A stretch of 64,000 nucleotides of DNA from Populus alba. Its lineage: Eukaryota > Streptophyta > Magnoliopsida > Malpighiales > Salicaceae. Of this stretch, positions 11,775-54,309 are shown piece after piece (the stretch's first letter is position 1; each line of letters starts with the position of its first letter). The stretch covers positions 14,413,875 to 14,477,874 of the forward strand of contig NC_133300.1 in the NCBI RefSeq assembly GCF_005239225.2, in the 5' to 3' direction. The position numbers and the translations under genes were made by a program. The notes below the pieces were generated by a model. It was not told the DNA's origin. It did no database searches and saw nothing but the letters and a program-made list of their open reading frames with translations.

Positions 11775-11936
11775 CTAGCAGGTGCGTTTGTACACCGACA
11801 AGCAGTTCTTTTTAAAACGACCGCAACCAAACAATGCTTTATAAGGATTTTGAGTACCTCCGGTTGTATCGGCAGTGCGAGAGCCAGCACTAAGAATCCT
11901 GTTAATTTCAGAATCCATCATGAACTCCAAATCTAA
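11775..11936 (-). pseudogene. RALF-1: truncated RALF-like peptide gene, 3' half only
   Basis: Only the region from LDLEFMMDSEINRIL to the C-terminal SVYKRTC stop remains. Cysteines survive in the phrases FGCGRF, KKNCLSV and KRTC. The signal peptide and promoter are gone: at 11937 the sequence switches to an AT-rich repeat that matches 18005-18470, which in the RALF-2 copy lies about 1.1 kb upstream of the gene. A start codon supplied by that repeat (11999) would give a 74-residue chimera without a recognisable signal peptide. The 3' flank is almost identical to that of RALF-3, whereas the phrase after NRIL (SAGSR) is closer to RALF-2, so the copy looks mosaic. Confidence 0.7.
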
Positions 11937-12400
11937 TTCAATAAAAATATTAATTTTAATAAACAAATTCAAAAATACACAACCAAGTAAATATTTCATT
12001 TATTAACATACCTGAATTTTCTAATTTTATTTTTAGTTATCATGAATACCTTTTTTTCAATTATTAATTCACATAGTTATCGATTTATTTAATTACATGA
12101 ATGCATAAGCTTTTTAATTTAAACTTTAAACTTTTTACGTAAAAAATGCATCAAAAAAGCATGCACGTACAACATTTTTGCAAGAGAAAAAAATATATAA
12201 CCAACGAATGACGCATCATTTTATTTGTTTTTTTCATAAACAATTTGCAAAAAAGAAAACGTCAATGCGCATGGGCCCTAACAAAATGGGCCAAGCAGGC
12301 TGACCTAGCTTGCTAGGTCCAGCAATGCTTGGCCTTTGTTTTTGTTTTTATTTTTTGAGTTTCTATTTTTTTAAAATTAATTTTTTTTTTTTTTTTTTAT
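11937..12400 (+). repeat. AT-rich repeat shared with 18005-18480
   Basis: Both copies share taataaacaaattcaaaaa, aaaaatgcatcaaaaaagcatgca, a run of gacgcatcatttta and ccaagcaggctgac(c/t)tagcttgctaggtccagcaa. No coding potential was recognised. Its contact point with RALF-1 marks a deletion junction. Confidence 0.7.
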
Positions 12401-13479
12401 ATTTAGATCAATACCTTTTTTTGATGTGTTTAAAGAGCCTCTTTGAAATGAAAATTATTTTTTAATTATTTTTTTTAATTTTTTAGGAGGTTCTTCTGAT
12501 TTATCTATAATTTTTTTTGAATCTTTTGTATAGATGAATTTTATTTTTGAAAATAAAAAAAATTATTTTCAAATAATATTTCTAATATGTGCAGGCTTGC
12601 ATATTAGTTTTTTCATTAGTTGAGGAGTAAAATTAATGTGCTGGAAGATACATGAATTACAGAACAAGAATCATTATGAAATTTTGGTGTAAATCTATCG
12701 TCGTGAAGATTTCAAAAAAATGTCATACACTTTCAAATCTCAACCGTTAATTTTGTATGAATCTGTAACCATTGAATATGCAAAAATAAGGATTCAAAAA
12801 TGTTGTTGACAGCCATGACCAGAACGCAAGGAGATCGCCCATCTATGTCTTTGTTTTTTAAAAGGCTACTGGGCCTGGAGAAAGACCTAGGCGTGCATGG
12901 ACATTGGCCCTAGCGTGCCTGGGCTCAACTCTATGGCCTATTTGTGTTTTTTTTTTTTTTTGTCATGAGATTTTTTTATGATTTAATTACTTAATTTAAT
13001 TTAATATTTTAATTTATAAAATGTATCATAAATATTGTATAAATTTCTTAAATTATTTAAAAATTTGATATTAAACTTTTATGGATTTCAAGGGAAAAAA
13101 TATTTTTATCAAAAATAAAAAAAATATAAATCATGCATAATGTATTGAGTATTTTTCATTTTGAGTGGAAACAATATAAATAATTAAAGATAATATAATG
13201 AAAGAAGTCTCAAAACCATGTATCAAACATAACACGCATAAAAATGCATATAAAAACACAATAAAAATTTGATTTTAAAAAAATTAGCATAATAAATTAA
13301 AAATATTGGTTGAATAGTATAATTTGACAAACAATAGGTAAAATAATATAATTTGTATATTTCACTATTTATAATTGTGACATTTAAGGATATTATATTT
13401 AAGAATCATGACATCTAGCTATTGTATAGTGACAAATCATCCAATGTGCTTAATAGTTTTACAAAATGGTCTAACCATT
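12401..13479. other. AT-rich intergenic DNA
   Basis: Mostly poly-T/A tracts and short GC-richer text (12830-12930, gggcctggag...ggccctagcgtgcctggg) that resembles LTR fragments. No gene, RNA gene or intact transposon is seen. Confidence 0.5.
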
Positions 13480-13990
13480 TTCTAAAATTTCTAGAATTTT
13501 CAGAATGTGTTCTCCATCTTATAACATGCATTTTCTCTGTATTCAAGGACATATGCATACATCACAACATCCTATGAAAATTCAAGAACTCAACAATATT
13601 TAAATTAAAATTAAACTCAACAAGATAAGAAGATTGTATGGTGAGTTTAATCTTAATTTAAATATTGATGAGTTCTTGGATTTATAGTTGTCATGAACCA
13701 AATAATTATATGATTAATAAACCAAATAACCATTAAACAATTGTTATAATTCCTTATAAATTCAAAAGAAATTTTATTTACAAGCTACTTTAAAACCACA
13801 TAAATTATAAGAAAACAAACATGTCAAAAAGGGTAAAAATTATGATATTATGATGATATATTTGGATACTGATATGCCAAAGGATGTTGTGATGCATCCA
13901 TATGTCCTTGAATATGAAAAGGAAATGCATTTTATAAGATGTTGAACACATTCTAGAATTTCTAGAAAATAATCAGATTACTTCGGCTAC
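13480..13990. repeat. Imperfect inverted repeat (foldback), about 0.5 kb
   Basis: The left arm, 13480-13640, reads tctagaattttcagaatgtg ... tattcaaggacatatgcata ... caagaactcaacaatattta. The right arm is its reverse complement in two parts, 13650-13690 (taaatattgatgagttcttgg) and about 13875-13985 (gatgcatccatatgtccttgaata ... attctagaatttctagaaaa). About 185 bp at 13690-13875 has no partner and may be a later insertion. No coding frame covers it. Confidence 0.8.
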
Positions 13991-16616: not shown

Positions 16617-16925
16617 TCAGCAACTCGGTTTACCATCAGGACCCTTACCCAAGTTGTATCGATTACCTGGGCCGCCACCAAACACTGGTTTCTCTGGATC
16701 GAAAGCACCATCTACAACAGGGCGAGAGCCAGCATTAAGAATCCTGTTGATTTCAGAATCCATCATGAACTCCAAATCGATGTTGGAATCAGCTATGGAG
16801 TACAAGGGGACGTCACCCTCTATTTCCGGCAGTGAAATACTAGCACCGCAACTTTTTGTGTTGAGCAGCATCATCGTCAACAACAACGACGACAATGTTA
16901 GAGCTGACAAGGAAAGGCTCTTCAT
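16617..16925 (-). pseudogene. RALF-2: RALF-like peptide gene with frameshifted C-terminus
   Basis: The frame is open for 102 codons: signal peptide MKSLSLSALTLSSLLL to about residue 28, then a propeptide with EFMMDSEINRIL (about 52-63). The mature region has lost the first two cysteines of the family pattern (FNCGKGNRYC in RALF-4 is FGGGPGNRYN here). A single-base deletion after GPDGK then brings a stop at GKPSC. In the shifted frame ELLNPYKCDCK follows, which is the lost C-terminus. Upstream, about 50 bp containing the TATA segment of RALF-4 is absent. A hAT-like element lies 46 bp beyond the stop. It is most likely a pseudogene; a truncated one-cysteine peptide is the alternative. Confidence 0.72.
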
Positions 16926-18955: not shown

Positions 18956-19440
18956 TTGATGCCTGGATCACGACGACACAATACAGAGGACCTTTCAAAG
19001 GTCTTCCATGGCCAATGGGTCCACTCAATTTGCTGCCTCATAACGTGCATTGGATATTTACATGAAACTTTACCAGCGACTTGTATATGGTGGAGTGGGC
19101 ATCCTATTTTAAAAATTGACCCTTTATATATTTTTTTTGTTCAACCAATCGTATTTTTGCATAATGAACTTTCCCTCAACGACAATCTATCTACTTGTTT
19201 GATAATGAAGTACGACAGCATGAACTCCAGAAAGTCTACACCATAAGTTTTGAGGATTCACCGCACCACCAGGGCGTCAGTAGCACAATCAACATTGATC
19301 TGAACCGATTTTTCTTTTTATTTGGCCACTCGACGGCGACATCCCTATTCCCTATTATTTCTTTTTCCTTTTTTATATTTTTCGAATCAACTTCCCTTTT
19401 CTTTTCAAGCTGGAAATATTTTGAATGTGCTAACTAATTT
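18956..19440 (+). repeat. Receptor-locus flank repeat, copy without a receptor gene
   Basis: 18989-19003 is the 15-bp palindrome GACCTTTCAAAGGTC, followed by tcttccatggccaatgggtcc, tgcctcataacgtgcatt and gagtgggcatcctattttaa; the first part is shared with the region upstream of the receptor gene at 20480. 19195-19290 (cttgtttgataatgaagtac) and 19317-19400 (atttggccactcg.cg.caacatc) are shared with 29150-29500, and the latter with the receptor's 3' flank at 23610. Upstream-type and downstream-type flanks are thus adjacent with no kinase sequence between them. Confidence 0.65.
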
Positions 19441-19469
19441 CAAAGATCAAATTAAAAAAAATAACTAAA

Positions 19470-19790
19470 TTAAATTAAAAAAAAAAACTGAAACGAACCA
19501 GTTCAAACCGACCGGTTTCGGTTAAGTTCGGTTATTTTAGAACAAAAACCAAAACTCAATCGATTGGTTTCAATTCGGTTCGGTTTCAGGTTTGGTTTGG
19601 TTATTTTATATTAAAAATAAAAAACTATATTCTTTTAATTTTTTTTTTGTAATTTCTAATGGGTTTGGTTTTGGTTTGGCTCGATTTTTATCTGTTTGGC
19701 TCGGTTATTATTTTTGGTTTGGTTTGGTTTTTCTTTTTCAGGCTTATAAAACCGAAACCGAATCGAACATGTCAGTTTTTTAACTATTCT
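19470..19790. repeat. CGGTT-rich imperfect inverted repeat, possible small transposon
   Basis: The left part is rich in ccgaccggtttcggtt and the right part in aaaccgaaaccgaatcg. The outermost matching text is aaaaaactga on the left and its reverse complement tcagtttttt on the right. No target duplication could be defined, so the boundaries are approximate. Confidence 0.4.
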
Positions 19791-20437
19791 AAGTGGCTTA
19801 ATTGATTTTTTTTCACGGTTCGATTGTTTTAATTATTTTTTTTTTAATTTTCTCAATTTAATTAATTTTTTAATTTTCTTACTCAACCCTACAAAAAAAA
19901 GATTTGTCAAAATATATTTCACAATATTGATAAATTGTGGTAACCATTGATCAATCATATTTTACAAAGTTAGGTGTTTTACTAGTCTTGAACGGTATTT
20001 TTATTATTAAATATACCTCGTTAAACCTTATATTATTTTATTTTATTTTCAAATATTTAGTTGTCAATCTATTTCTTTTTTTTCTATTATTAGTTTATTT
20101 TAATTTTAGTTCTATTATATATTGGATTATATCTAGATTATCTAGATTATTTTTTTTAATTAACATAGATTTTAAAGTTAATAACCATATAAAATCTTTA
20201 ATGATACTGAGATATCTATATAAACATATTATTTTAATCATGAAATTATCTAAGATTGCTTTTAATATAAAGGAATACCAAATTTCTTAAATTGAGCAAC
20301 ATCTTTAACGATTATATATTCCTAAAAAAAAAAGAAGAAAAACATATATCAAATAAGAAATGGATGGATTTTTATTCAATCTAATCAAATGGAAAAATCT
20401 AAAGGCACGGAAATCTCTAAAGTTGATAGAATACAGC
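19791..20437. other. AT-rich intergenic DNA upstream of the receptor gene
   Basis: Poly-T/A tracts. A frame of 117 codons at 19937-20290 has low-complexity hydrophobic composition and no recognisable domain, so it was not called as a gene. It may hold distal regulatory sequence. Confidence 0.45.
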
Positions 20438-20719
20438 CAACGACTTGGAAGTCCTTCATGCCCCACTCGTACTATCAAAGACCTTTCAAAGGTCTTCCAT
20501 ATATTGCCCCCTTTGCCAAATGCTACATTGATACTACTCCATGAGACTTTTATAATTACTAATACTTGAAAACGATTTTACATAAATAATAATAATAATA
20601 AAAAAGAATAAAAATCAGAATCAGTCAACTATAGCATGACTTAAACTCCTCTCAGCATATAATTAAAAGGAGCTTCTCCTCTTGATTTCTTCATCTCTCC
20701 TCCTCTGGCCAAAAACAAA
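20438..20719 (+). promoter_or_regulatory. Upstream region of the CrRLK1L gene: palindrome and TATA-like box
   Basis: A perfect 15-bp palindrome GACCTTTCAAAGGTC lies at 20480-20494, about 226 bp before the ATG. Perfect copies occur at 18989-19003 and 30439-30453, and imperfect ones at about 24216, 26356 and 55258. A TATA-like catataatta lies at 20656-20665, 55-64 bp before the ATG, followed by a C/T-rich leader (cttctcctcttgatttcttcatctctcctcc). The assignment as a core promoter is inferred from position. Confidence 0.5.
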
Positions 20720-23422
20720 ATGAGTAGCAGCAGCAGCAGCAGCAGCAAATCTCTCTCTCTCACAAACTTATCTCTCTTCACTCCTCTGCACCTCTCCTTC
20801 CTGTTCCTCCATCTCACCATCCTTGTAACCGGGGATCCACCACCACCACCTTACGTCCCCCTCGATAGCATAGCGCTCGATTGTGGTTCATCCGCCGATG
20901 GTGTTGGAATCGATAGAAACTGGACTGCAGACATCAACTCAAAAGTGGTCATTCTAGATCAAGGCAGCCCCTCAACAAATCTCAAAGCAAATGGAGCCTC
21001 CACTAGCTCTGTACCTTATTGTACTGCTCGCGTCTCTCACTCCAAATTCACCTACACGTTTCGTGTCAATACAACGGGACCTAAGTTTGTTCGCCTCTAT
21101 TTCAATCCAGCTTCCTACACTGGTCTCAACAGGTCTAAAGCATCTTTTTCTGTCACATCCGGTCGCTATACCTTGCTTAGCAACTTCAGTGGCTTCCATT
21201 ACACTGACCCTCGTGGTGAACGAGGTTACGCCAGAGAATTCATCTTAAGTGTTGTAGATGAGCAGAAAAATCTGAGCATAACGTTCACGCCAAGCCCTCA
21301 TGTAGCTGATGCATATGCTTTCATCAACGGGATTGAAATCGTATCCATGCCCACCAATCTTTATTACACTGCAGGAGACGACCGAGGGATGTATGGTTTT
21401 GACCAGGATTTCTATCTTCCCCTTCAAAATGACACTGCTTTAGAGATCATGTACCGAGTAAATGTGGGTGGGACAGAGATCACACCGCCCAACGACAATG
21501 GCATGTTTCGAAGTTGGTTAAACGATGTCGTTTACTTGACGGATGCTCGACCAAGCGCTTTTCATTTTAATTACACTATTCAACTTCAGTATAATAGCCA
21601 CACTCGCTATGCTGCACCTGACGTCCTCTATCGAACTGCTAAGACCATGGGGCCCGATTCTACTGTAAATAAGAAATACAATATGACTTGGGAGTTTCCG
21701 GTCCACTCCACGTTCAACTATCTTGTTAGGCTTCATTTCTGTCAGTTTATACCGATTATATTGCAAAAAGGCGACCTAGTCTTTAAAATATATATCGCTA
21801 ATCAAACGGCAGAGCGTTACGCAGATATAATCTCTTGGGCTGCTGGATATGGGGTTCCCATATACAAAGATTACGTAGTGATGATGGATGCCGGAGGAAA
21901 CGAAGGGATACAGAATTTATCAATTGCATTGCACCCTATTCCGTCTACTAAAACCGTGGATGCAATGTTGAATGGAGCTGAAATCTTCAAATTGAGCAAA
22001 TCAGACAATCTTGCCGGACCAAATCCTGCCACGTATCCGGACAGCCCCGTTAGTAATACTCCTAGCGCGACCTCAACAAAGCCAAAGCATAGTCGAAGAA
22101 CAGTCGCCATTATTGGTGCTGCTGTTGCGGGCATTGCTGTCTTCTCAGTTCTATTTCTCTTGATTTTCCGTAGAAGAGTCCAAAAATTCAAGGACCTGGT
22201 TTCTGGTGATGCAGCTTCAAACTTAAGCCCTCTTGTTTCCTCTTCGAGAAAGTCAACAAAGACCCATAGGCCATCTCTACCTTCTGATCTATGCTACCTT
22301 TTCTCGCTAGTTGAGATCATAGCAGCTACAAACAACTTCGACGATTCATTCATTATTGGTGTTGGTGGCTTCGGTAACGTGTACAAAGGATTATTTGATG
22401 GTGGAGTCAATCGTGCTGCGATCAAGCGATTGAATCCAAGTTCACGGCAGGGTGCAACCGAGTTCAGGACAGAGATTGAGATGCTCTCCCAGCTTAGATT
22501 CCGCCATTTGGTTTCTCTAATTGGTTACTGTAATGAGAATAATGAGATGATCCTGGTGTATGATTATATGGCTCGGGGGACGCTTCGTGATCATCTCTAC
22601 AGAACTGATAATCCTCCACTTTCATGGACTCAGCGCCTAGAGATTTGCATCGGTGCTGCCCGTGGGTTGGATTACCTTCACACAGGTGCCAAGCACACTG
22701 TCATTCATCGTGATGTGAAGACAACAAATATCCTGCTGGATGAGAAATGGGTGGCCAAAGTTTCGGATTTCGGATTGTCCAAAACAGGCCCTACGAGCAC
22801 ATCGAAGGGCCACGTGAGCACCGTTGTGAAAGGTAGCATAGGGTACTTGGATCCCGAATATTGTCAACGCCAGCAATTGACAGAAAAATCTGATGTCTAC
22901 TCATTTGGGGTTGTGTTGTTCGAGGTATTGTGTGCTAGACCAGCAATAAACCGATCAGCAGTGCCAGCAAGTCTAGCAGAGTTGGCTAGACAAAGCCACA
23001 GCAACGGAACGATTAATGAAATCATTGATCCGTATCTGGATGGAAAGATCTCACCAGATTGTCTGAAAAACTTTGTTGATGTTGCAGTGAGATGCTTGCT
23101 CGAGAATGGAATCGAAAGGCCATCGATGACGGATGTGGTTTGGGGCCTTGAGTTTGCATTACAACTGCAAGAGAGCGCGGAAGAGAATGTCAAAGTGGCC
23201 CAAACTGAGAAAGAAGTTAACATAGAGACTCCTCTGAAAGGCTCCTCAATCGATGACAGCAGTGATTTGTTTAGTACTGGCAGTGAACTAGTTGTGAATT
23301 CCCGCATTTTGGAAATGGCAACAACAAGCAGCAGCGACGGACAAAGTTTTCTAAGCAACGAGTCGGAGAAAATGATGTCTGGTGCTGTGTTCTCTGAGAT
23401 CATGAACCCAGAGGGGCGATGA
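20720..23422 (+). CDS. FERONIA-like receptor kinase (CrRLK1L, malectin-like receptor)
   Basis: A plasma-membrane receptor Ser/Thr kinase of 900 residues in a single exon, as is usual in this family. Family members sense RALF peptides and cell-wall state in growth, fertilisation and immunity. In order: a Ser-run and hydrophobic signal peptide (about 1-38); an extracellular part with two malectin-like domains (about 50-210 and 225-425) with many N-glycosylation sites (NWT, NTT, NRS, NFS, NLS, NDT, NYT, NMT, NQT); a transmembrane segment at about 461-483; and a kinase domain at about 543-818. Key residues are present: Gly-loop GVGGFGNV 547-554, Lys569, HRD 663-665 with Lys667 and Asn670, and DFG 683-685; the kinase should be active. 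The C-terminus SGAVFSEIMNPEGR is close to the FERONIA tail. Compared with FERONIA, the SLAEWA phrase reads SLAELA. No frameshift or stop. The ATG is the first in frame after a pyrimidine-rich leader. Whether it is the FERONIA orthologue or a lineage-specific paralogue is open. Confidence 0.95.
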   Translation: MSSSSSSSSKSLSLTNLSLFTPLHLSFLFLHLTILVTGDPPPPPYVPLDSIALDCGSSADGVGIDRNWTADINSKVVILDQGSPSTNLKANGASTSSVPYCTARVSHSKFTYTFRVNTTGPKFVRLYFNPASYTGLNRSKASFSVTSGRYTLLSNFSGFHYTDPRGERGYAREFILSVVDEQKNLSITFTPSPHVADAYAFINGIEIVSMPTNLYYTAGDDRGMYGFDQDFYLPLQNDTALEIMYRVNVGGTEITPPNDNGMFRSWLNDVVYLTDARPSAFHFNYTIQLQYNSHTRYAAPDVLYRTAKTMGPDSTVNKKYNMTWEFPVHSTFNYLVRLHFCQFIPIILQKGDLVFKIYIANQTAERYADIISWAAGYGVPIYKDYVVMMDAGGNEGIQNLSIALHPIPSTKTVDAMLNGAEIFKLSKSDNLAGPNPATYPDSPVSNTPSATSTKPKHSRRTVAIIGAAVAGIAVFSVLFLLIFRRRVQKFKDLVSGDAASNLSPLVSSSRKSTKTHRPSLPSDLCYLFSLVEIIAATNNFDDSFIIGVGGFGNVYKGLFDGGVNRAAIKRLNPSSRQGATEFRTEIEMLSQLRFRHLVSLIGYCNENNEMILVYDYMARGTLRDHLYRTDNPPLSWTQRLEICIGAARGLDYLHTGAKHTVIHRDVKTTNILLDEKWVAKVSDFGLSKTGPTSTSKGHVSTVVKGSIGYLDPEYCQRQQLTEKSDVYSFGVVLFEVLCARPAINRSAVPASLAELARQSHSNGTINEIIDPYLDGKISPDCLKNFVDVAVRCLLENGIERPSMTDVVWGLEFALQLQESAEENVKVAQTEKEVNIETPLKGSSIDDSSDLFSTGSELVVNSRILEMATTSSSDGQSFLSNESEKMMSGAVFSEIMNPEGR

Positions 23423-23990
23423 GAAGCAAGCTAGTTAGCATGCTGCGTTAGTATAGGCCTCAAGACAAAGGTTTCTAGCTGAAATACCTATCGATGCATA
23501 TATATGCATTACTTGTTTGAATAATTTTGTTAGTGATAATTAGTGTGTCTGATAGAATGATTTTATTGCAGCACTCTGTATATTCAGCATTAATTGGAAC
23601 TAATTTTTCATGTTATTTGGCCACTCAGCCGCAACATCACCACTCTTTCAAGCTCACAATATGAACAATTGCATGCTTGATAATTAAGAAGTTAGGGATG
23701 CTCAAGCTATCTGATTCAAAATTCGGCTCACTTTCATCGTTAATTGTAAATACATGAGAAAAGAAAATGCAAAATGCATTCATAAATTAATTTATGATAA
23801 ATTATTATTTATACACAAATAATTGATTAAATTTACAATTGATCAAATTAATTCAGAGACTAGATTCCATAATATTAATAATGTCTTTGTTTTTACATTT
23901 TTTTAAAAAAAATAATTGTTTAAGAATTGATTAATTATCTGTAATGAAAATCAAACTCAAGTCGTACGTGTAAATTTAAGAAAATCAATA
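23423..23990. other. Receptor 3' flank
   Basis: Contains the 3' UTR region and the text atttggccactcagccgcaacatc at about 23617, which recurs at 19317 and 29437. The rest is AT-rich with no gene. No clear polyadenylation signal could be singled out. Confidence 0.5.
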
Positions 23991-24500
23991 AAGAAAGGTC
24001 CACATGTTAAGGACGAAAAATCTGACGTTTCATTTCCTGCAGAACGTTACCAATATATTTCCATAATGTTTTTTTAAAAAAATACAATTCCAAGGAAATA
24101 TGCAGAAGTCTGATTCTGATGTCTTAAAAGTTAATTTTCTTGGAAAGTGCGGATTTTTTTTTAATGTTGAATTATTGATTGCATAACGCCAACGACTTGG
24201 AAGTCATTGATGCCTTTCAAAGGTCACTGCTACACAGCACAGACGAGACGACCTGTCAAAGGTCTTCTTCCATTTCTAATTGGTTCACTCTATTTGTTGC
24301 CTCATAACGTGCATTAGACATTTCAAAGGCAACAACTTGGGATTTTTTAATGTTGAATTATTGATTGCATAATGCCAACGACTTGGAAGTCTTTGATGCC
24401 TTTCAAAGGTCACTTCTTTCATTTCCAATTGGTCCACTTTATTTGCTGCCTCACAACGTGCATTAGATGTGAAATATTCCATTTTTCACGCCGGAGTGGG
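23990..24500 (+). repeat. Receptor-locus flank repeat, two partial copies
   Basis: Begins aaaggtccacatgttaagga and contains two adjacent copies of the unit gattgcataacgccaacgacttggaagt followed by tttgatgcctttcaaaggtc (at 24178 and 24360). It continues with tgcctcataacgtgcattaga and ggagtgggcat. Partners are at 26220-26590, 29990-30560 and 55020-55450. Short frames in it are not conserved as protein. Confidence 0.7.
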
Positions 24501-24502
24501 CA

Positions 24503-24547
<45 letters not shown>
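24503..24547. repeat. (TA)n microsatellite
   Basis: Uninterrupted TA dinucleotides. The same position in sister copies of the repeat is also a TA run (26969-27001, 31409-31422, 61571-61602). Confidence 0.9.
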
Positions 24548-24549
<2 letters not shown>

Positions 24550-26963: not shown

Positions 26964-27004
<41 letters not shown>

Positions 27005-28440: not shown

Positions 28441-28441
28441 T

Positions 28442-40290: not shown

Positions 40291-40299
40291 AGGCAACGT

Positions 40300-43200: not shown

Positions 43201-43480
43201 AAATTAATTTGACCCATTTAAAGTATAATTAAGTCCTTGCACTTAATTAAATCCTTCAATTGGACCCAAATTAATCCTTAAACATAATTAAACTTTAATT
43301 TAACCCATGATTAAATCAAATTGGCCTATTAAAAATTTAATTATGTTCTTGGACTTTAGTTTTATGCAAATTTGTCCAATAATAATTTAATTTGATCTTG
43401 AATTTTGCATTGTTTCTCTATTTTTTAGGCATAATAAGGTATAATTAGGCCTTGAATTTTCTTTAAAATTACAGCTTGAT
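40300..43480 (-). mobile_element. Old Tat/Ogre-like LTR or LTR fragment, minus orientation
   Basis: 40380-40445 (ggtgtcaccatctagtaata ... ctaaggtaaactgcattatt) resembles the inner LTR text at 56105-56245. 41100-41260 has ggttgggctgatctcaacc and cccaggcccgc, like 59460-59550. 42760-43450 has the alternating gcacccccaattgaccc / aattaagtcc text of the outer LTR at 60480-61060. The order matches the minus-strand LTR at 58793-61234. No coding region is joined to it and the edges are uncertain. Confidence 0.55.
41840..42690. repeat. Tandem array of about four 200-bp units
   Basis: The phrase accattctaggttgg starts at 41901, 42101, 42302 and 42503, a period of 200-201 bp. Each unit also holds aaatgtcagg, catgcat.ttttgtcaaatt and cattaaatgcac.tgcaaag. 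Each unit has an internal half-repeat (cactttaggc.g.cgccataaccgtt). It lies inside the old LTR. Confidence 0.92.
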
Positions 43481-43489
43481 TTAATGTAT

Positions 43490-44316
43490 TATTTTGGCAT
43501 TCTCCCCGACCTTCTTTCTCCACATCACCAATTTTTATTTTATTTTTTGGTTTTTGATTTTGAAAAAAAGTGAATTTTAAAGAATAACTCAAAAATAAAT
43601 TATGACACTGCTCATGACATCTTATCACAAACTTAAAACATTTTTTTTTTTAAGGCATGAATGGCATTAAACAACTATAATAAATCAAACAAATGACCCT
43701 AAAGTCTCAAACAAATCAAATTCAAGCTTAAACCCACACAACAAGACTCAAGATTACTAAAAATGACAACTTTAAACATTCTTTCATATGGTAATGCCAG
43801 ATTAATAACTTAGGTTTATACACAACAACGGACATCATCATTATTCAAAATGACACTTGAAGTAAAAGGCAGTGATAAAGATTATACTTAGATTGGAGAG
43901 CAAAATATAGTTGAAGTAGCTTTGAATCAATGGATTCCTAATGGTTGTATACCCCTCATTGTCTTTCTCTTTATCCAAGATATAGAGAAAAATAGGCACA
44001 CAAACCGTAATTTTTCTTCTTTTTCTCAATATCACAATCATTCTGTAGTGGTAATAATATTATATATCCAATTCCTTTTTCCCTCTTTTTTTTTTCTAGC
44101 TTTCTAAACATTATACCTTTTTTTATAGAATGGTCCATGACTTTTATTCAAGAAGCTCATTTACCTTGCATTATTGTTGTTGTTATAAATATTAAATTTT
44201 ATTATCACTCTCATAAAATAATCAAAAATATAAAATAATCATAATATCAACCTAGTAACAAATTTAAGTACCTTTAAAAGATAAATTATTCGGAATATAC
44301 AGGAAAATATATAAAA

Positions 44317-44371
<55 letters not shown>

Positions 44372-44746
44372 TGGATTTGGGTTTTTCACAAGCAGAAAGA
44401 AGAGGTTTCCATCACTAATTTGAATGGTTAAAGAATAAGTTTTTTTTTTTAAACGCATGCGATGGGAAAGGTTTTTTATCTTTACAAATTATGCATTAAA
44501 TATTTTTTTTATGTAATTAAAAACATAAAAGGAAATAACTTTAGTTAAGCAGGGAGAACATTGTCTATTAAAATATTCCCAGCCCTTGATTTAAGTCGAA
44601 GGGCTAAAATTAAACAAACATGATATATCATGTTAACAATAACTTGAATGAAGCTCCCTCCATGTAAACATGTATTAACAATTAATTATATTAAAAAAAA
44701 GAATATTAAGGGAAATAAAATATAAATATTACCATTGTAGAGAAAC
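43490..44746. other. AT-rich DNA with (TA)n microsatellite
   Basis: A TA run spans 44320-44371 with one break. No gene was recognised. The last few bases before 44747 are the left flank of the CACTA insertion and may be the RALF-4 3' flank. Confidence 0.5.
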
Positions 44747-44749
44747 TTA

Positions 44750-45430
44750 CACTACCAGAAAATCGCTAAATACAAACGGACATACCGACGGAATTTTTTC
44801 TGTCGGTATTTTTCGGCCGAAATCACCGACGGACAATATTCATCGGTAATTCGGTCGGTCATTACCGACGGACTCCGTCCGTCGGTAATTACCGACCGAA
44901 TTACCGACCGAAAATTCAGAATTAATGAAAAAAGGGCGGGCAGTGGCGCGGAGGTTTTGGCGGGTGATGTTTCCGACGGAATTAAAAACTGGGGCCCGTA
45001 CGCGTGATGGGACCTATTCACCGTCAAAAAATACCGACGGAATCACCGACGGATTTGAAATGCCAGATCCGTACCGGTGATGTGACGGGTGCACCGTTAA
45101 AAATACCGACGGAATCACCGAGGAATTTGAAATGCCAGGTCCGTGCGGTGACGTGTCGATTGCCCGTTAGAATTGCCGACGGTCTTGCCGACGGATTCAC
45201 CGACGGGCTTTATTCCGTCGGTAAGTCCGTCGGCAAAAGTGAATATATGGCTCCTCTGCCGACACTCTCTCCCCCATTTCTCCTTCTTCTTCCTAATCCT
45301 AACCCTCCCCATCTGCAAAATAACCAGCCCCCCCTCGCCCCAAAACAAGAATTTTGCTCATCTCAGCACAACAAGTTGTATTTGTTTTGTGGTCACAGCA
45401 TCCGTGTTCTGATTTACCGACGGATTTTAT
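44750..45430 (+). repeat. CACTA copy 2, 5' terminal and subterminal repeats
   Basis: At least a dozen copies of ACCGACGGA or TCCGTCGGT in both orientations lie between the terminus and 45430, many forming short palindromes such as accgacggactccgtccgtcgg (44865-44887). Expected role: TnpA binding and synapsis of the ends. Confidence 0.9.
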
Positions 45431-45742
45431 CATTTTTTGTAAGTAATTCTATCTTTTAAAATTTTAACATTTAAATGTTAATTTTTATTGTTTTTTTTAG
45501 TATATGTATTATTTTTTTTAGTAGATGTACATGTTTTTATTGTTATTTCTCAAACAAACTTGTAGTATATGAATGTATAATTTTATACTTGTTATGGTTT
45601 GTTTTAGATTTTGTAAGATTGTATTTTTTTGAAAATTGTTAAAATTTAATTTGTAGAATTACCGAATTACATGTTTGTGTTTTGAAATAATTAAGAGCTT
45701 GCTTAATTAATGGGTCCTTTTTATAGAGGTTCGATAGAAGTC

Positions 45743-48700
45743 ATGGATGATCGTTCATTGGATGTATCTAGATTCACCCCAAGGATTGCGGAGGATGGAT
45801 TATTGTAACGGGGTTCAGGGTTTTATTAATTTCGCAACATCTATTCCCAGAAATTTTACTGGAGGCGGTATTAGGTGTCCATGCAGGAAGTGTCAAAAAT
45901 AAAAAGTATCTGCATCCAGATGTTGTAATTGATGCATCTCTTCTACACAAAAAGGGTTTGTGGAGGATTACGAGTGTTTGGTATGCACATGGAGAGGTAT
46001 TTTGTTAGTAATAGGAGAATGGGAAGAAACGGTGGTTTGGGTCAACTTATAGTGCTAGCAACGTGCATGAAGCGGCAAATGACAACACTAATCCTTACAG
46101 AAACATGGTTATGGATGCAATGAGAATGAATCAAGATAATGTCAATCAATGTCCAATCGTAGAAGAAGAACCTAATGCAGAGGCAGCTAGGTTTTTTGAT
46201 TTGTTGAAAGATTCTGACGAAACCATTATGGGATGGCTGCACAAACCACAGTAAATTATCGGCTGTGGCACAGGTGTTCACCATCAAGTCAGATCACGGG
46301 TTGAGTGAGGCCGGTATGATAAAAATTATTGATTGGGCAAGAAGCATTTTACCAGAAGGGAACAGGCTCAAAGAGAACTTCTATGCTGCGAAGTCCATGA
46401 TGAAACCCTCGGTTTAGGATACCAGAAAATTGACATGTGCCCTAACTTCTGCATGTTATACTACCTTGAAAAATGCTGTGATGACGAGTGCATGACATGC
46501 GGGCATTCCCGTTACAAACCCAAAACTGGCAGGGGGAAGACTCTAGTGGCATATAAAAAAACTTAGATATTTCCGATCACACCTAGACTGCAGAGGTTAT
46601 TTATGTCACCAAGGACTGCTGAGCACATGACATGGCACCAAACACACGATGTCGTTGATGGTGTGATGGTGCATCCTTCTGATGGCGAAGAGTGGAAACG
46701 CTTTAACAGTGTTCATCCTGACTTTTCTGCTGAATCAAGGAATGTTCGACTTGGGTTGTGTACAGACGGGTTCAACCCATTTGGGTCATTTGCTGCTCCC
46801 TATTCTTGTTGGCCGGTCATTCTCACAATTTATAACTTGCCACCGGGAATGTGTATGAGGCCGGAGTTCATGTTTCTATCTACTGTCATAACCCGGTCCA
46901 AGCAGCCCGGGGCGGAATATAGATGTTTGTCTTCGACCGTTGATAGATGAGCTGGCGCAGTTGTGGTCCTCCGGATCTCTGACTTATGATATATCTAGGA
47001 AACAAAATTTCCTTATGAGGGGCGGCTTTGATGTGGACTATCAGTGATTTTCCAGCTTATGGAATGCTTTTCTGGTTGGAGCACGCATGGGAAAATCGCA
47101 TGTCCATACTGCATGGAAAAACAAGGCATTCACGCTAGCAAACGGAGGTAAAGCTTCTTTTTTTAACTGTCACCGTCGCTTCTTGCCACTTAATCACAGG
47201 TTCAGAAAGAACAGAAAAGATTTCTTTGTTGGTAGAGTTGAAAAGATGTTGCATCCCCGCGTCTTTCTGGTGAAGAATTGCATCATGTTGTATCAGAGTA
47301 CGGTGACATTGTGTTTGGCCTTCAATCAGGTAAGCAAAAGTTTCCTGGTTTTTGGTTTGACCCATAATTGGGTAAAGCGAAGTATCTTTTGGGAGCTTCC
47401 GTATTGGAAGACTAATCTTATCCGCCATAACCTTGACGTCATGCACATCGAAAAGAACGTGTTTGAGAATATTTTTCAACACCGTCATGGATGTGAAGGG
47501 GAAGACAAAGGACAACATGAAGGCTAGATTGGATATAGCTTTATACTGTAACCGAAAAAATATGGAGTTGGTTTATGACGAGTCACGGGTTGCAAAACCA
47601 AGGGCAAGCTTCGTGTTAGAGAAAAACGCACAACTGCTAGTCTACAAATGGCTTAAGAGTCTGCGTTTCCCGGATGGACATGCATCGAACATATCAAGGC
47701 TTGTTAACATAGAGGACTGCAGATTGTATGGAATGAAGAGCCATGACTGCCACGTGTTTATGCAAACACTCATCCCATTAGCTTTTCGTGATTTGTTGCC
47801 AAAGGGAATATGGGATGCACTAACGGAGATCAGTCATTTCTTCAGAGATATATGCTCCAGCAAGATGAATGTTGAGCACATTGAGATGCTTCAAACGAAT
47901 ATCATCGAGACACTATGCAAACTTGAGATGATATTCCCTCCTTCATTTTTTGACTCAATGGAGCATCTCCCTATACATCTACCGTTCGAGGCAAAAGCTG
48001 GAGGACCGGTCCAGTATAGATGGATGTACCCATTCGAACGGTGAGATATTACAGTTGCAATGGAATTCATATCTTAAAGTATTTTCTATGTTTTTCTTAT
48101 TTGAAAATACTTGAATTGTACTTCAATGCAGGTACTTGTTTAATCTAAAAAAAAAGGTTAAGAACAAGGCGCATGTTGAGGCTTCGATATCTGAGGCCTA
48201 TATTGTTGAAGAGATATCAACATTTATCTCGTACTATTTCGAACCTCATATGAGAACAAGAATCAATCGCGTTCCACGGCATGACGATGGCGGTGAAGTG
48301 CCTTCCAGTGGGAACTTGTCAATATTCTCCAATACTGGACGACCCACACCTAAAAATGCCGTAAGAGGAAGATATTTGTCGGAAATAGAATTCAAACAAG
48401 CACACAACTATGTTCTATTTAACTGTGATGAGCTGAGACCATTTATTCAGTAAGTCTATATATGTGTAATAGTAATTAAACTTTGTCAGTAATATACTGT
48501 TAATTATATATTGTAATATCATACACTCATTATCACTTGCAGGCAACATCGACAATATTTGCTCTCCAATAACTCGCAGCTGACCGAATCCCAGATCTTT
48601 CAATTACAAGATGAACAATTTGCCACATGGTTCAGAACACATGTAAGCACTATCACAAACTCATTGTAACGTATGCATGTCATTACGAGATTCTCGTTCA

Positions 48701-49519
48701 TTTACCGTGTATTGATGTACATTTAATTACATATATTTACAAGGTTTATCAAATGGGAAGGAGTGCGCCAAGTCATTGTCTTCACTAAGCCTCGGCCCTG
48801 AAAGAAAAGTTAAGTGCTATAACGGGTATTTTGTCAATGGATATGTTTTCCATACTGAAGAATACGGGCAAGGAAGAAAGACATACAACTGCGGTGTTTG
48901 TGTTAAGGGATCCACAAGTAGCCAGTTAGAAGTTGACTACTATGGTAGATTAGAAGAGGTCGTCGAACTGCAATATTCATAGCGAGCAGAATAAAGTGTT
49001 TTTATTCAAATGCTATTGGTATGACACGACGGACAGAGGAATCAGAGTTTGATCCGCACCATGGTCTGGTCGAAATCAACTCAAAAGCTAGACTCCGCAA
49101 CATAAACGATGTCTTTGTTTTCGCAAAGCAATGTCAACAAGTTTATTACACATACACCCCTTCATTTAGAAAGGATCGTTCAAGAGTTGATTGGTTGTCC
49201 GTTTTAAAAAACGAAACCACGGGGTCGTGTCGAGGTTGTTCAGGATGAGAACGAAGACACAAGTGTGCGAGATGAAGTCTTTCAAGTTCGTGAGTTGGTT
49301 GAACCATATCGAGTTGCTCCTTCGATTGAATTGGAAGAAAATTCAAATTTTCGAGTTCTCGATGATAGTCTTGTTGATATTGACGGAGAGGAGTTGAATG
49401 TTGTTCTCAGCTCTAGCGGACAACCAAATGTCGATGAAGAAGATGATATCCATATTGAAGATTGCGATGAAGATGATGACAATTCAATTGACGAGGAAGA
49501 AGAAGAAAATTCCGACTAA
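45743..49519 (+). pseudogene. CACTA TnpD-type transposase, broken (copy 2)
   Basis: Same domain order as in copy 1: transposase-associated domain from ATG 45743, tnp2/Transposase_21 (46333-46566 CPNFCMLYY; 46603-46950 VRLGLCTDGFNPFG and PPGMCM; 47087-47527), DUF4218 (47433-48044 and 48136-48453), DUF4216 (48776-49248, GYVFHTEEYGQGRKTYNCGV) and an acidic tail (49265-49519, DEEDDIHIEDCDEDDDNSID). Lesions are frequent and differ from copy 1: an extra base in tcattggatg near 45755 shifts the frame at once, and an extra A lies in caaaaataaaaag near 45895. Genuine introns can still be read: 48042-48131 (between PFER and YLFNL), about 48450-48541 (between PFI and QQHRQY) and one starting near 48642. 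It cannot encode an active transposase. Confidence 0.9.
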
Positions 49520-49714
49520 TTATGAACATGAAGCCCTATGTAAAAACATTTGTCTCATGTAATTTAGATTATTGATGATGTATTTTGTAAAACAAAATAT
49601 TTACTGTTTAAGCAATGTGGTTGTTGTGTTTATGTGATGGACAGTTTATTAGTTAAGTTTCTGCAGGAAGGTAAACAGGCAATACAAAGACAAACTTTCC
49701 TGCATAATGCAAAC

Positions 49715-50240
49715 TTACCGACGTCCATACCGACGGAATCACCGTCCGTCGGTATCTCACAGAGAGTTCGAAAATATTTACAACAAAATGCCACAATCAC
49801 CGACGGCCCTGCCGACGGATCGCCATCCGTCGGTATCTCACAGAGAGTTCGAAAATATTTACAACAAAATGCCACAATCACCGACGGCTATGCCGACGAA
49901 TCGCCCTCCGTCAGCATCTCACAGTAAGCTCGAAAACATAACACCACCATCGACGGTATTACCGACGGCGTAGGTCCGTCGGTAATTTGTCGGTTACCCA
50001 TTTTACCGACAGCATTACCGACGGACCGCGCGTTTCCCAAAGTGCGTTAATTAATGCGCCCCTGAACTTGTCAGCTTTCCGACGGAATCACCGACGGACT
50101 GCGAAAATTTTGGAGGGCTTTTAAAAATTCGGGGTGAAATTCGAAAAATACCGACGGAATTTTGACCTTTTACCGACGGATTTGTAACCTTTTACCGACG
50201 GATGTTAATTCCGTCGGGGATTCCGTCGGTAAAATTGACC
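49715..50240 (+). repeat. CACTA copy 2 internal CCGACGG cluster with 81-bp units
   Basis: ccgtc(g/a)g(t/c)atctcacag recurs at 49746, 49827 and 49908 (period 81). This gives an open frame (49707-49973) with repeats of SHREFENIYNKMPQSPTA. Further CCGACGGA motifs follow to 50240. It sits between the two genes and could serve as the promoter or insulator of the second gene; this is inference. Confidence 0.8.
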
Positions 50241-50399
50241 TATAAGTTCCACCCCCGCCGCTTCGCCTCATTTTTTCTTCTTCTCCCCGCCGCTTCTTCT
50301 CTTCTCCTGCGTTTTTCAGCCTAGATTTTTCATTTTTTTCCCCCTCAATCCTTAAACACTTTCACCTTTAATCTCTAGCAAGATTTGGTGTTGTAAATC

Positions 50400-51447
50400 T
50401 TTCATTATATTAAAAGGTATGTGTTTTTTTCTCTAATTTATTTTATTTTATTTTATTTTTAGTTGTTTTTATTTTTGTTGTGTTGGTGTTTTTTGTTGCA
50501 ATGTAGATAAAGTTTTGAATTTGACACATTATTAAGGTATGTATATTTCGTTCCTTTTTTTTTTTGAATATTTTTTGAATTTGTTGAATATTTGTTAATT
50601 TAATTGTTGAATAATTGAATTTAATTGTTGAATTTATTGAATATTTTTTGTTGTTGTGTTGTTAGAATTTTTATTAGGTAATTTAACTTAGAATTAGTTA
50701 AAGTTGAATTTTTTGAATTTGTTGAATAGTTGTTAATTTAATTGTTGAATAATTGAATTTAATTGTTGAATTTATTGAATATTTTTTGTTGTTGTGTTGT
50801 TAGAATTGTTATTAGGTAATTTAACTTAGAATTAGTTAAAGTTGAATTTTTTGAATATTTTTTGAATTTTTTGAATTTGTTGAATATTTGTTAATTTAAT
50901 TGTTGAATAATTGAATTTAATTGTTGGATTTATTGAATATTTTTTGTTGTTGTGTTGTTAGAATTGTTATTAGGTAATTTAACTTAGAATTAGTTAAAGT
51001 TGAATTTTTTGAATATTTTTTGAATTTGTTGAATATTTGTTAATTTAATTGTTGAATAATTGAATTTAATTGTTGGATTTATTGAATATTTTTTGTTGTT
51101 GTGTTGTTAGAATTGTTATTAGTTAATTTAACTTAGAATTAGTTAAAGTTGAATTTTTGAATTTTTTTGAATTTTTGAATTTGTTGAATTGTAATTGTTA
51201 ATTTGTTGAAGTATAATTTGTTGCATTTATTGAATTTATTTTTTATATATATTTTTTATTGTTTTGAATATAATTATTGATTAATTTGTGAATTGTAATT
51301 GTTAACGTTGAATTTATCTTAGGATTAATAGTTGAATATGTTGGAATAATTAGTATAGATTGTTTAGATATAAAATCCAACAAATTAATCCGATTTTTTT
51401 TTAACTTTTGAATTTTATTTTACAATTATTAATATAAAATTGTTTAG
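50400..51447 (+). repeat. Leader/intron of the TnpA-like gene with about four 140-155-bp repeats
   Basis: The phrase gttgttgtgttgttagaatt recurs near 50650, 50788, 50945 and 51095, each followed by aggtaatttaacttagaattagttaaag. It is T-rich and non-coding, and lies directly upstream of the first coding exon. A decayed equivalent is at 1-480 on the other strand. Confidence 0.8.
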
Positions 51448-53181
51448 ATGCGCAAAATGAAAACCAGAACTGGTCGTCCAGTCGAATCAAGTTCGTCTAG
51501 CAGTGATGATGATGTTTCCTTAGGTGCCTCTCAAGAAGAGGCACCTACACCACCTGCGCCGTCAACCGATGCTGCCTCTTCCAGCGATGTTTCACATCGC
51601 AGACGCGGCATGCCTTCAAAGCGGAATCAATTTACCCGCCAGTTCGAGGCACAGTGGAAGGACGATCTTTCAATGTAAGTTTGTTAATGTTTTAGTTTTT
51701 TTTATATAAAAAAAACAAATTTAAAACATAATTTATGAAGTAATCACAAATTAATTTTCATTTCTTTCAGGTTCACAAACATTGAGGCCGCCCGATTAAT
51801 ATCATCGGCGTTTAAAGCGTCGATGGAGATTCCATTGTTTCAATGGAGTCAGATATCCAGACATCCTGAATGGATGCCTCAAATCAATGCATGGTTTCGT
51901 AGATTTGAGGTTCGTGTTAATATATAATTTTCAGCTTATTTCTAATTATAAATTCATATTATAATTGTAAATAAATTATTAACATTTTAAAAAAATTATT
52001 TTTTTATATACAGCATCGATTCTGCTGGGACGATGAACATGACAGTGTTGTGAGGAGGGTGTGGGAAAATCACGCGGCAATTAGGTAACATCGAAAACAA
52101 TACGACTTTTTTTTTACATAATTATTTATGTTTTGAAATGTAATTTTTTCGTGCGTGAATTAGGTTGCGTGATTTTTGGTATGACGCCCAGAAAAAAGCA
52201 AAAAAAACAGCGAGGGATAAGGGGTTACAAGGCTGGAACGATGTTGCGGTTTGGAGGGATTTCAAACCAATATACATCCCGGAAGATATATGGCCGCACT
52301 ATCTTCAGCACGTGACGTCTGAGCGGTTCACTCGACGCTCACAGTCCGGTGCCGGCAACCGGAATCGGCAAATTCATGGCTCGGTTACAACGCACACCGG
52401 CGGCTCCGTTCCGTTTGCTGCACATGCGAAACGGATGGTAAGATTAATTTAAATGAAATATATCGTTCAATTAATTTGTTGTTAATACATTTTTTTCATT
52501 ATATATAGGCTACGTCTCTTGGATGTGAGCCGAGCCCTATGGAGCTGTTTGTGGAGACGCACGTGCGGAGTCATGACCGCCAAAAGGGGACGCAACAGTT
52601 CGTTGACAACCGTGCTCAACAGTTTGTGGTGTGTTTGTTTAACCATTTTATTTTGTAAGTTATTATTATGTTTATTGAATTGAATATGATTTTTTTTTTT
52701 TCAGGAGACCTATAATAATCGGTTGAGGGAGAGATACGGGGATGATCCTTCGACCCATCCGGAATTCGATCCGGATTTGTGGATGGAGGCTGGATCGTCA
52801 GGTGGACCCGATAAAAATCGGGTTTACGGGCTCTCCAACACTACCGCTGCCAAGTTGCGGTCGACCGGTACTGCTTCAACCGTGGGAGCTCCCAATCTGT
52901 ATCGAGCTCCCAATCTAAGGAGTTTGTGGCCTTGCAGCAAAGGTTGCGACCACCTATCAGAGGCGTACACACAACTCAAAGAAGAGCAAAGATTGGCAAA
53001 CGAACAACACAGATTGGCGGACGAACAACGCAGAGCAGAGTCTGAACAACAAAGAGCGGCCTATGAAGAGCTTCGTCAAATGGTCATGAACATGACACAA
53101 GGCGGAACATGTGCGCCTAATCCTTTTTGGCCGCCTAACCCCCACCCTCCTCCTCCTCCTCCTCCTCCACCTTTATATTAA
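51448..53181 (+). CDS. CACTA TnpA-like protein (Transposase_24 / Ptta-En/Spm family), six exons
   Basis: Joining six exons by GT-AG boundaries gives an open frame of 435 residues: 51448-51674, 51771-51909, 52014-52084, 52164-52437, 52509-52628 and 52705-53181. Phases fit at every junction (for example SM/FTNIEAARL and HAAI/RLRDFWYD). The N-terminus is Ser/Asp-rich with SHRRRGMPSKR (basic, likely DNA-contacting or nuclear). The middle holds the plant transposase region with WxxxxRHPEWMPQINAWF, RVWENH, LRDFWYDAQKKAKK, WNDVAVW, RRSQSGAGNRNRQIHGS and MELFVETHVRS. The C-terminus is a coiled-coil Glu/Gln/Arg-rich segment (EEQRLANEQHRLADEQRR) and a Pro-rich tail. In En/Spm the equivalent protein binds subterminal repeats and helps excision. 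No stop or frameshift was found, in contrast to the neighbouring TnpD. Confidence 0.82.
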
Positions 53182-53334
53182 TTGTTTTTTTTTTTAAAAC
53201 ACATTCATTTTGTAATGAATATTATTTAACTTTGAGTTTTTGTTGCTTAATATAAATTTTATTTGCATAATTGGTTTGTATTACTATTAATTTATATTTA
53301 TTTTTTCTAAATAATTAAAAAAAAAAATTACACA

Positions 53335-53789
53335 GGGATTTACCGACGGAATAAATCCGTCGGCATTGGACAGTGTTTGAGGTATGCCATCCCATCACCG
53401 ACATACTCACCGACGGACATACTCCGTCGGTATAAAAATACCGACGAATTTACAGACGGATTTATTCGGTCGGTATGAAATATCACCGACACTTTTGCCG
53501 ACGGAGTTACTCCGTCGGTATTTAAATAACACCGACGGAATGTATTCCGTCGGTATATTCCAAGCGGGAAACTTTTTTTTTTTGGCGCGCACCGGCCGTC
53601 GGTAAAACCGTCGGTAAATGTGTTTTTTTATTACCGACGGATATAGCGACGGAATGTGGAATCACCGACAAAAGGTATTCCGACGGAAGTATTCCGTCGG
53701 TAATATAGTCGGTAAATAATTTACCGACGAACGTTCTGTCACACACCGACGGAATATGTCCGTCGGTAAAACTGTGAAATCTTGTAGTG
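53335..53789 (+). repeat. CACTA copy 2, 3' subterminal repeats and terminus
   Basis: Dense alternating ACCGACGGA / TCCGTCGGTA motifs (for example 53341-53362, 53400-53433, 53500-53520, 53530-53555, 53630-53705, 53745-53768) lead to the terminus cttgtagtg at 53789 and target duplication tta at 53790-53792. Confidence 0.9.
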
Positions 53790-53904
53790 TTATTATATGA
53801 TTAAATTCGACACCCATTCGATTCCAATAGATAATAATGACAGTAGTAGAAAGGGGATTAACAACCTCCCTAAAAATAGGTACATATCACTGGCATGGAA
53901 TAAC

Positions 53905-53973
53905 TGCTAGCAGCCGCGTTTGTACGGCGACCGGCACGTCGGTTTACCATCAGGACCCGCCACGTTGTATCCA
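53905..53973 (-). pseudogene. Extra copy of the RALF C-terminal coding module, downstream of RALF-4
   Basis: 53912-53973 repeats the text of about 53985-54048: cgcgtttgtac, cggcac.tc.gtttaccatcag and gacccg.cacg..gtat. It is a tandem duplicate of the C-terminal codons (GPDGK...YKR in the source), lying beyond the RALF-4 stop. It is not in frame with RALF-4 and has no start of its own. Confidence 0.75.
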
Positions 53974-54309
53974 TTACTTCTCGCAGTCGCGTTTGTACAT
54001 GTCCCGGCACATCAGTTTACCATCAGGACCCGGCACGCAGTATCGATTACCTTTGCCGCAATTAAACGGTGGTGCCCCTTTGTGGACAGCATCGTATGCT
54101 TTATTGAGAGAGCCATCACCCAGAATCCTGTTAATTTCAGAATCCATCATGAACTCCAAATCTAAGTTGGAATCAGCTATGGAGTACAAGGGGACGTCAC
54201 CGTCCATTTCCGGCAGTGAAATACTAGCACCACAACATTTTGAGTTGAGCAGCATCATCGTCAACAACAACGACGATAATGTTAGAGCTGACAAGGAAAG
54301 ACTCTTCAT
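53974..54309 (-). CDS. RALF-4: RALF-like secreted cysteine-rich peptide, best-preserved copy
   Basis: 111 residues, single exon. Signal peptide MKSLSLSALTLSSLLLTMML to about residue 28 (CCGA/SISLP). The propeptide has LDLEFMMDSEINRIL (49-63), the RALF landmark before the mature peptide. The mature part has four cysteines in the family order: Cys84 (FNCGKG), Cys91 (RYCVP), Cys101 (LMCRD) and Cys109 (YKRDC). RALFs are apoplastic peptides that signal through CrRLK1L receptors, often with LORELEI-type or leucine-rich extensin partners. This copy lacks the second Arg of the usual RRIL processing site and the YISY receptor-contact motif, placing it with divergent (clade IV-like) RALFs. Upstream it has TATA-like boxes at 54391-54400 and 54361-54372. 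The stop is about 180 bp from the CACTA insertion edge. Confidence 0.8.
   Translation of the reverse strand: MKSLSLSALTLSSLLLTMMLLNSKCCGASISLPEMDGDVPLYSIADSNLDLEFMMDSEINRILGDGSLNKAYDAVHKGAPPFNCGKGNRYCVPGPDGKLMCRDMYKRDCEK

Follow-up and report, generated by a model that had tools for sequence, protein, structure and literature searches.

Variable RALF-derived peptide genes interleaved with FERONIA-related receptor kinase genes in Populus alba: a candidate recognition array

Introduction

RALF peptides and CrRLK1L receptor kinases are usually studied as parts of growth and wall-integrity signalling. A different arrangement is known from the Brassica S locus, where the gene of a variable cysteine-rich ligand is linked to that of a receptor kinase whose ectodomain is diversifying. 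Here we describe a stretch of 64,000 nucleotides of the Populus alba genome (assembly GCF_005239225.2, contig NC_133300.1, most likely chromosome 17, hereafter C17; C17:14413875-14477874, "the window"), in which four peptide loci of RALF descent lie around a CrRLK1L receptor gene, together with the array of approximately 650 kb to which they belong. We consider it about an even call that this is a recognition array of the Salicaceae, combining variable RALF-derived ligands with diversifying FERONIA-related receptors.

Several described systems come close to such an arrangement. In the solved complex, the YISY motif docks RALF23 to LLG2, and the MalB domain lies near both LLG2 and RALF23 (PMC12034098); MalB of FERONIA has been suggested to be sufficient for the RALF response (PMC8791635). 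The clade IV RALFs, termed RALF-related, have lost both the RRXL and the YISY motif and possess a variable mature part (PMC5258720). On the Brassicaceae stigma, a lock-and-key system employs stigma RALFs and pollen RALFs on FER, CVY1, ANJ and HERK1 (PMC12786044). Tandem clusters of malectin-domain genes are reported for P. trichocarpa, with RALFs named as ligands (PMC7783096). In searches of open-licence papers we found no description of a peptide/receptor array of this kind, and no paper describing the genes behind the poplar gene numbers of the region as a cluster.

Organization of the Array

The window contains one intact CrRLK1L receptor kinase gene on the plus strand (window positions 20720..23422), as the earlier note on this DNA had reported. 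It was delimited from the list of open reading frames (ORFs), Pfam and a search of solved chains, and encodes 900 amino acids in a single ORF. The protein matches Malectin_like (4e-30) and the kinase domain (1.1e-45) in Pfam, so that it shows the CrRLK1L layout of a tandem malectin-like ectodomain and a kinase encoded without an intron. Its nearest solved chains are the FERONIA kinase and the FERONIA ectodomain. Against FER chain 6a5b, however, its ectodomain scores 296 bits, compared with 423 for locus L022 and 602 for a gene on contig C6, and the C6/C16 receptor pair is placed apart from the array receptors in the tree. Judged by sequence, the window receptor is a relative of FERONIA and not its orthologue.

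Four related peptide loci, all on the minus strand, lie where they had been placed before. R4 (53974..54309) is intact and encodes 111 amino acids, comprising a hydrophobic leader, a pro part with the motif MDSEINR and a four-cysteine mature part; it alone among the window loci has the regular four-cysteine form. R3 (38416..38772), identified by ORF and alignment, is an open frame of 118 amino acids whose four mature cysteines are spaced differently, and has a longer in-frame start at 38943. R2 (16617..16925), delimited in the same way, keeps the signal and pro parts, while its mature part stops early, retaining one cysteine and losing the C-terminal ones. R1 (11775..11936), recovered by tblastn and alignment, is a 5′-truncated family remnant of 53 amino acids with the pro motif and a mature part holding three cysteines; the family's signal peptide is missing. 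This truncated form recurs at C17:14007064 and C17:14058255. By eye, a hydrophobic leader is present in R2, R3 and R4 and absent from R1.

R4, used as a query against the 416-Mb genome, found 40 matches, and 38 of these fall inside C17:13,919,946-14,517,628. After merging matches less than 700 bases apart, they represent 35 peptide loci, all but one on the minus strand; such counts are lower bounds, as three truncated R1-type loci known from the region sequence are outside the 38. The receptor search returned 13 loci in the same interval, all on the plus strand (12 at no less than 82% identity and one at 50%), in addition to a pseudogene of the 50%-type receptor at C17 14.297 Mb. Five of the 12 window-type receptors are full-length without an inner stop (the window gene, L010, L011, L013 and L014); in each of the other seven the gene is truncated, split or interrupted by a stop. 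Peptide and receptor loci are interleaved along the array, which spans C17:13.92-14.57 Mb. With 38 of 40 family matches located within the receptor array, the present co-clustering exceeds chance. Linkage of ligand and receptor genes, a property expected of S-locus-like systems, is thus found here for peptides whose ligand role is putative.

The two remaining matches are weak and correspond to the mature part of R4; they lie on the plus strand at C17:16679781-16690631, 2 Mb off the array, and are missed by the RALF model. A second RALF type, RALF27-like, passes Pfam and has two copies in the genome, both in the array. One is found 1.6 kb upstream of the intact 50%-type receptor on the same strand (L030, C17:14562858-14567443), and the other, 99% identical (C17 14294196), precedes a broken copy of that receptor type.

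Descent of the Peptides

The loci had been called RALF-like, which is borne out for their descent by a profile match; in terms of domain assignment, none of the four window loci matches the Pfam RALF model PF05498 even at E 10, and R1 and R2 are defective. We aligned 28 family members from several species, chosen for the four-cysteine layout. Two of them match PF05498 (best E 0.0024), none carries the YISY motif, and 27 have all four cysteine positions of the mature part; several further members of the family have no mature cysteine at all. Comparison of the family with seven other poplar RALFs by hhalign gave a match at 97.3% with E 2.5e-11, spanning the pro and mature parts. The pro part of the peptides contains EFMMDSEINRIL, and another RALF precursor from the same genome has EFEMDSEINRRIL there. 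The RRXL cleavage site for S1P is absent, with INRIL in the peptides versus INRRIL in other poplar RALFs, i.e., one arginine of the site is gone. This profile match identifies the family as RALF-derived peptides, RALF by descent despite the lost motifs. Because most of its peptides no longer match the RALF model, the array escapes domain searches.

An origin from the neighbouring RALF27-like gene was considered and is weakened by the scores, as the match to that gene has E 8e-5 versus E 2.5e-11 for the other poplar RALFs. AlphaFold2 modelling of R4 with the 28 aligned members gave a mean pLDDT (predicted local distance difference test) of 53 and a pTM (predicted template modelling score) of 0.17. 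Neither the family profile nor R4 alone matched any solved structure, and a search of plasmid records returned nothing, as expected of a plant gene.

Variability of the Mature Part

Pairwise comparison of 33 of the 38 named members gives mean identities of 0.77 for the signal, 0.89 for the pro and 0.28 for the mature part. Eight P. alba loci, forming 28 pairs, have leaders 0.86-0.99 identical, while their mature parts are unalignable in 14 pairs and 0.69-0.99 identical in the other 14. Of these alignable pairs, five have mature parts that resemble each other less than either flank does, and four have mature parts at least as alike as both flanks. The proposal that the mature part outdiverges its flanks in most pairs was dropped on this count of five in 14 and on the unalignable half of the pairs. 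Eight of the 14 pairs with unalignable mature parts have 3′ flanks that can still be aligned, at 0.77-0.88 over at least 98 bases.

Two kinds of change contribute to this pattern. R4 and the locus at C17:14062834 differ by one silent change over 63 leader codons and have unrelated mature parts. Among close copies (R4 and 14,098,922; the R1-type trio), changes in the mature part are mostly replacements. Swapped mature parts and replacement changes together suggest that 3′ reshuffling and point change are both active. The ratio of replacement to silent substitution rates (dN/dS) of the mature part is 1.1-1.2 on an uncertain alignment, with silent divergence raised as well (0.40 versus approximately 0.1), and the corresponding ratio of differences (pN/pS) in the leader is about 0.5. 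Positive selection on the peptides is likely, short of proof. At R4 itself, Tandem Repeats Finder detected a 73-bp unit in two tandem copies, which cover the C-terminal segment and the sequence just downstream (53903..54050), and tblastn located the second copy of the 3′ segment at 53910-53981; this tandem duplication at the coding end is one possible route to new mature C-termini.

We regard it as rather improbable that the variability reflects nothing beyond decay and reshuffling, many of the loci being pseudogenes with swapped or broken 3′ parts and a leader homogenised by gene conversion. Such a history would account for the shared leader and unrelated mature parts of R4 and C17:14062834, the higher silent divergence of the mature part, the members devoid of mature cysteines, and the four of 14 alignable pairs with a mature part at least as alike as both flanks. 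It is harder to reconcile with four-cysteine proteins in several species (27 of 28, in a set chosen for that layout), with a leader pN/pS of this size, and with 3′ flanks that remain alignable beside unalignable mature parts.

Many families of defence peptides are built in this way, with a leader that stays constant and a cysteine-rich mature part that varies. The peptides might accordingly be antimicrobial-like defence effectors built on a RALF precursor rather than receptor ligands. We consider this very unlikely, since it leaves unexplained both the interleaving of the peptides with receptors and the selection on receptor ectodomains described below.

Selection on the Receptors

For nine receptor paralogues dN/dS is 0.82 in the ectodomain and 0.35 in the kinase. 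Site models M1a and M2a were compared with our own script, using a fixed tree and a grid search. For ectodomain codons 45-451 of ten paralogues, M2a was preferred over M1a with twice the log-likelihood difference (2ΔlnL) equal to 106; for kinase codons 521-740 of nine paralogues the value was 0.86, i.e., no positive selection was detected there. Fourteen sites reached a posterior above 0.9, nine of which (224, 226, 230, 231, 252, 258, 268, 282 and 285) fall in codons 224-285 (window positions 21389..21574, plus strand). Partly from alignment to the FERONIA chain and partly from general knowledge, we take this segment to be approximately the MalA-MalB linker and the start of MalB.

Thirds of the ectodomain, each analysed on its own tree, gave 2ΔlnL of 19.7, 54.6 and 9.6, the strongest being codons 181-315. 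Null simulations without recombination reached at most 8.0 in 24 runs, and those with four blocks of random topology up to 34.5 in another 24, indicating that recombination inflates the statistic, yet not as far as 106; inflation of this size might account for the two weaker thirds. Between the window receptor and its segmental copy we counted four silent and 33 replacement differences in the ectodomain, versus no silent and one replacement difference in the kinase. Two older receptor pairs have ectodomain dN/dS of 0.26 and 0.20. Overall, the codon models point to strong positive selection on the ectodomains of the array receptors and to none on the kinase.

Linkage in Other Populus and Salix

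A protein search with R4, which reaches only relatives sharing short words with it, returned 69 proteins; all 37 with a named organism are from Populus or Salix. Receptor and peptide genes carry neighbouring locus tags in Salix udensis (OIU84_028822 peptide, 028823 receptor, 028824 peptide), S. suchowensis (OIU78_026224 peptide, 026225 receptor), P. x canadensis (Peur_026720 and 026725 receptors, 026722 peptide, 026726 RALF27-like), P. tomentosa (POTOM_055112 peptide with 055113 receptor; 053944 peptide with 053945 and 053946 receptors), P. trichocarpa (BDE02_17G080900 receptor, 081100 peptide) and S. dunnii (Sadunf17G0093000 peptide, 0093200 receptor). In the S. suchowensis set OIU76 the peptide (028159) and the receptor (028115) are 44 tags apart, and the 120 matches listed include no receptor from the gene sets to which the S. 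purpurea and S. koriyanagi peptides belong. The earlier note had held that absence of the linkage from related genomes would speak against its idea; as far as locus tags go, the linkage appears to be present in six Populus and Salix species, which is in favour of that idea. Read from tag numbers rather than coordinates, these gene names suggest that peptides and receptors are linked in other members of both genera.

In a receptor tree of 46 sequences (30 of the 120 matches listed and 16 from this genome), nine Salix and 18 array-type Populus receptors each form one clade (support 1.0); the two clades are sisters (0.97) and are placed next to Euphorbiaceae relatives. Separate genus clades imply that expansion, or homogenisation, of the receptors was separate in Populus and Salix. 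In the peptide tree, 16 of 17 Salix peptides group together.

Segmental Duplication and the Role of Chance

Local duplication is certainly part of the history of the cluster, as the earlier note had considered, since a whole module is repeated and a long block is collinear. R1, R2, the receptor, R3 and R4 recur in the same order at C17:14,058,255-14,099,254, 370 kb away. The main duplicated block, carrying the receptor and R3 (19204..44749), corresponds to C17:14069917-14098737 and is collinear with it, its main pieces being 94-99.6% identical. The end of the block, with R4 (53790..54737), is 94.9% identical to C17:14098735-14099691. The second module has an extra peptide locus (14,062,834) between the copies of R1 and R2, an R2 copy without the leader, an R3 copy whose start codon is altered (C17:14089838) and an R4 copy that is 97% identical (C17:14098922).

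Between R3 and R4 the window holds a 9-kb insertion (44750..53789) with pieces of CACTA-type transposase (tnp2, DUF4218), which is missing from the second copy. The ends of this stretch overlap by three bases in the second copy, resembling a target-site duplication. Pieces of two CACTA-type elements (tnp2, DUF4218) lie in opposite orientation at 2985-5156 and 46603-48044, and an ORF for a Ty3-type gag is present at 57199-58191.

When 15 RALF and 23 CrRLK1L groups were placed at random, some pair came within 100 kb in 15% of placements and within 2 kb in 0.4%. The former value means that the founding linkage may be luck, and passive duplication of a linked block could yield much of the remaining array. 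The nearest listed RALF/CrRLK1L pair outside the array is 458 kb apart and involves a small CrRLK1L group at C5:12132317-12222260. On contig C10, a tandem CrRLK1L pair (L027 and L028, C10:14707614-14717553) has dN/dS of 1.22 in the ectodomain and 0.23 in the kinase, and the nearest listed RALF is 10 Mb off. Raised ectodomain dN/dS is, therefore, not unique to the array.

These observations bear on an explanation that we find somewhat unlikely, namely that the two families were chance neighbours in an unstable, transposon-rich block whose duplication multiplied both, with the ectodomains diversifying in response to pathogen molecules or wall fragments and the peptides unrelated to the receptors. 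The 15% probability of founders within 100 kb, the plain segmental duplication and transposon pieces, the many broken copies and the C10 pair would all follow from it. It fits less well with the mixing of both families in two genera, as judged from locus tags, although the receptors expanded separately in each; with a mature part whose variability far exceeds that of the signal and pro parts; and with the presence of a second RALF type, which fits the first type less well than other RALFs do.

Of the two outcomes that the earlier note had left side by side, joint inheritance of variants of ligand and receptor or a chance neighbourhood later duplicated, the variability of the peptides and the ectodomain-only selection favour the former, while duplication is certain and the founding linkage could be chance. 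Several points weigh against recognition. Many copies are damaged, including R1 and R2 in the window and seven of the 12 window-type receptors, and the initial proximity of a RALF to a CrRLK1L gene was not improbable and could be chance. In only five of 14 alignable pairs do the mature parts resemble each other less than either flank does, and their dN/dS is only slightly above one, on an uncertain alignment and with raised silent divergence. The peptides have lost RRXL and YISY, the latter being the LLG2 dock of RALF23, and, to judge from the C10 pair, such ectodomain selection need not involve linked peptides. With these points counted, we put the chance at about one half that the data in combination are better explained by a recognition array than by plain duplication.

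Proposed Function

In the recognition array that we propose, joint amplification within a single 650-kb block has multiplied RALF-derived peptides and a FERONIA-related CrRLK1L subfamily. The peptides, with a near-constant signal and pro part and a variable mature part, would be secreted, and the mature peptides may serve as cell-surface ligands, agonist or antagonist, of the array receptors, possibly in cognate pairs. An LLG-type co-receptor probably takes part, and the constrained kinase would transduce binding at the diversifying ectodomain.

If the array does serve recognition, pollen-pistil recognition would be our first choice of process, held with roughly even confidence by analogy, because in the Brassicaceae the pollen supplies divergent RALFs that serve as keys to FERONIA-type receptors. 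Immune recognition would come second; it seems less probable, and the existence of pathogen RALF mimics makes it a serious choice. A bolder version, which we think unlikely, is a recognition supergene, in which the peptides of each module would be matched to their own receptor and haplotypes would differ in module sets. In poplars and willows the array would then decide which mates or hybrids are compatible, or which microbes are recognised, as an independent counterpart of the S locus assembled from components of cell-wall signalling.

A related but distinct explanation, which we also rate as unlikely, is an immune receptor array whose receptors would detect microbial molecules, RALF mimics included, or stand guard against them, with the peptides tuning the receptors or competing for them. 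RALF homologues are reported from fungal plant pathogens (PMC5258720), and in soybean a malectin-like receptor kinase is the reported target of a RALF from a nematode (PMC8719587); moreover, cluster expansion with ectodomain selection is reminiscent of resistance loci. A guard model does not, however, require a variable peptide of the plant's own. Potri.017G094400, a possible array receptor whose tag is near that of the P. trichocarpa peptide POPTR_017G095500, is listed as a receptor-like kinase gene downregulated on Marssonina infection (PMC5867875).

With both sides amplified in one array and a selected ectodomain, the locus offers a compact, testable case of possible ligand-receptor co-evolution, with a possible bearing on species barriers or pathogen recognition in the Salicaceae.

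Comparison with Known Systems

The RALF-FERONIA/LLG system (Arabidopsis RALF1 and RALF23 with FER) shares with the array the malectin-like/kinase layout of the receptor and a peptide of RALF-precursor descent. The array differs in that its peptides are without RRXL and YISY, its receptor is no FER orthologue, and its genes are amplified in one place. For the Brassicaceae stigma system, we know of no ligand-receptor gene array. That system resembles the locus described here in its RALF-type peptides and CrRLK1L receptors, which are employed there in species recognition (PMC12786044).

Clade IV RALFs share with the array peptides the loss of both motifs and the variable mature part; unlike them, they average 88 amino acids and have no acidic region (PMC5258720), whereas the array peptides comprise approximately 110 amino acids with an acidic pro part containing MDSEINR. 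The poplar malectin clusters are similar in the tandem expansion of malectin-domain genes and differ in that the accessible passages of their description do not mention adjacent peptide genes (PMC7783096).

The Brassica S locus (SCR/SP11 and SRK) is similar in its linked genes and in combining a small variable cysteine-rich peptide, which in the array is a putative ligand, with a receptor kinase whose ectodomain diversifies. Poplars are dioecious, so the array would not be a self-incompatibility system in the S-locus sense. The gene families involved are unrelated, and the single ligand-receptor pair of the S locus is matched in the array by many copies of each partner.

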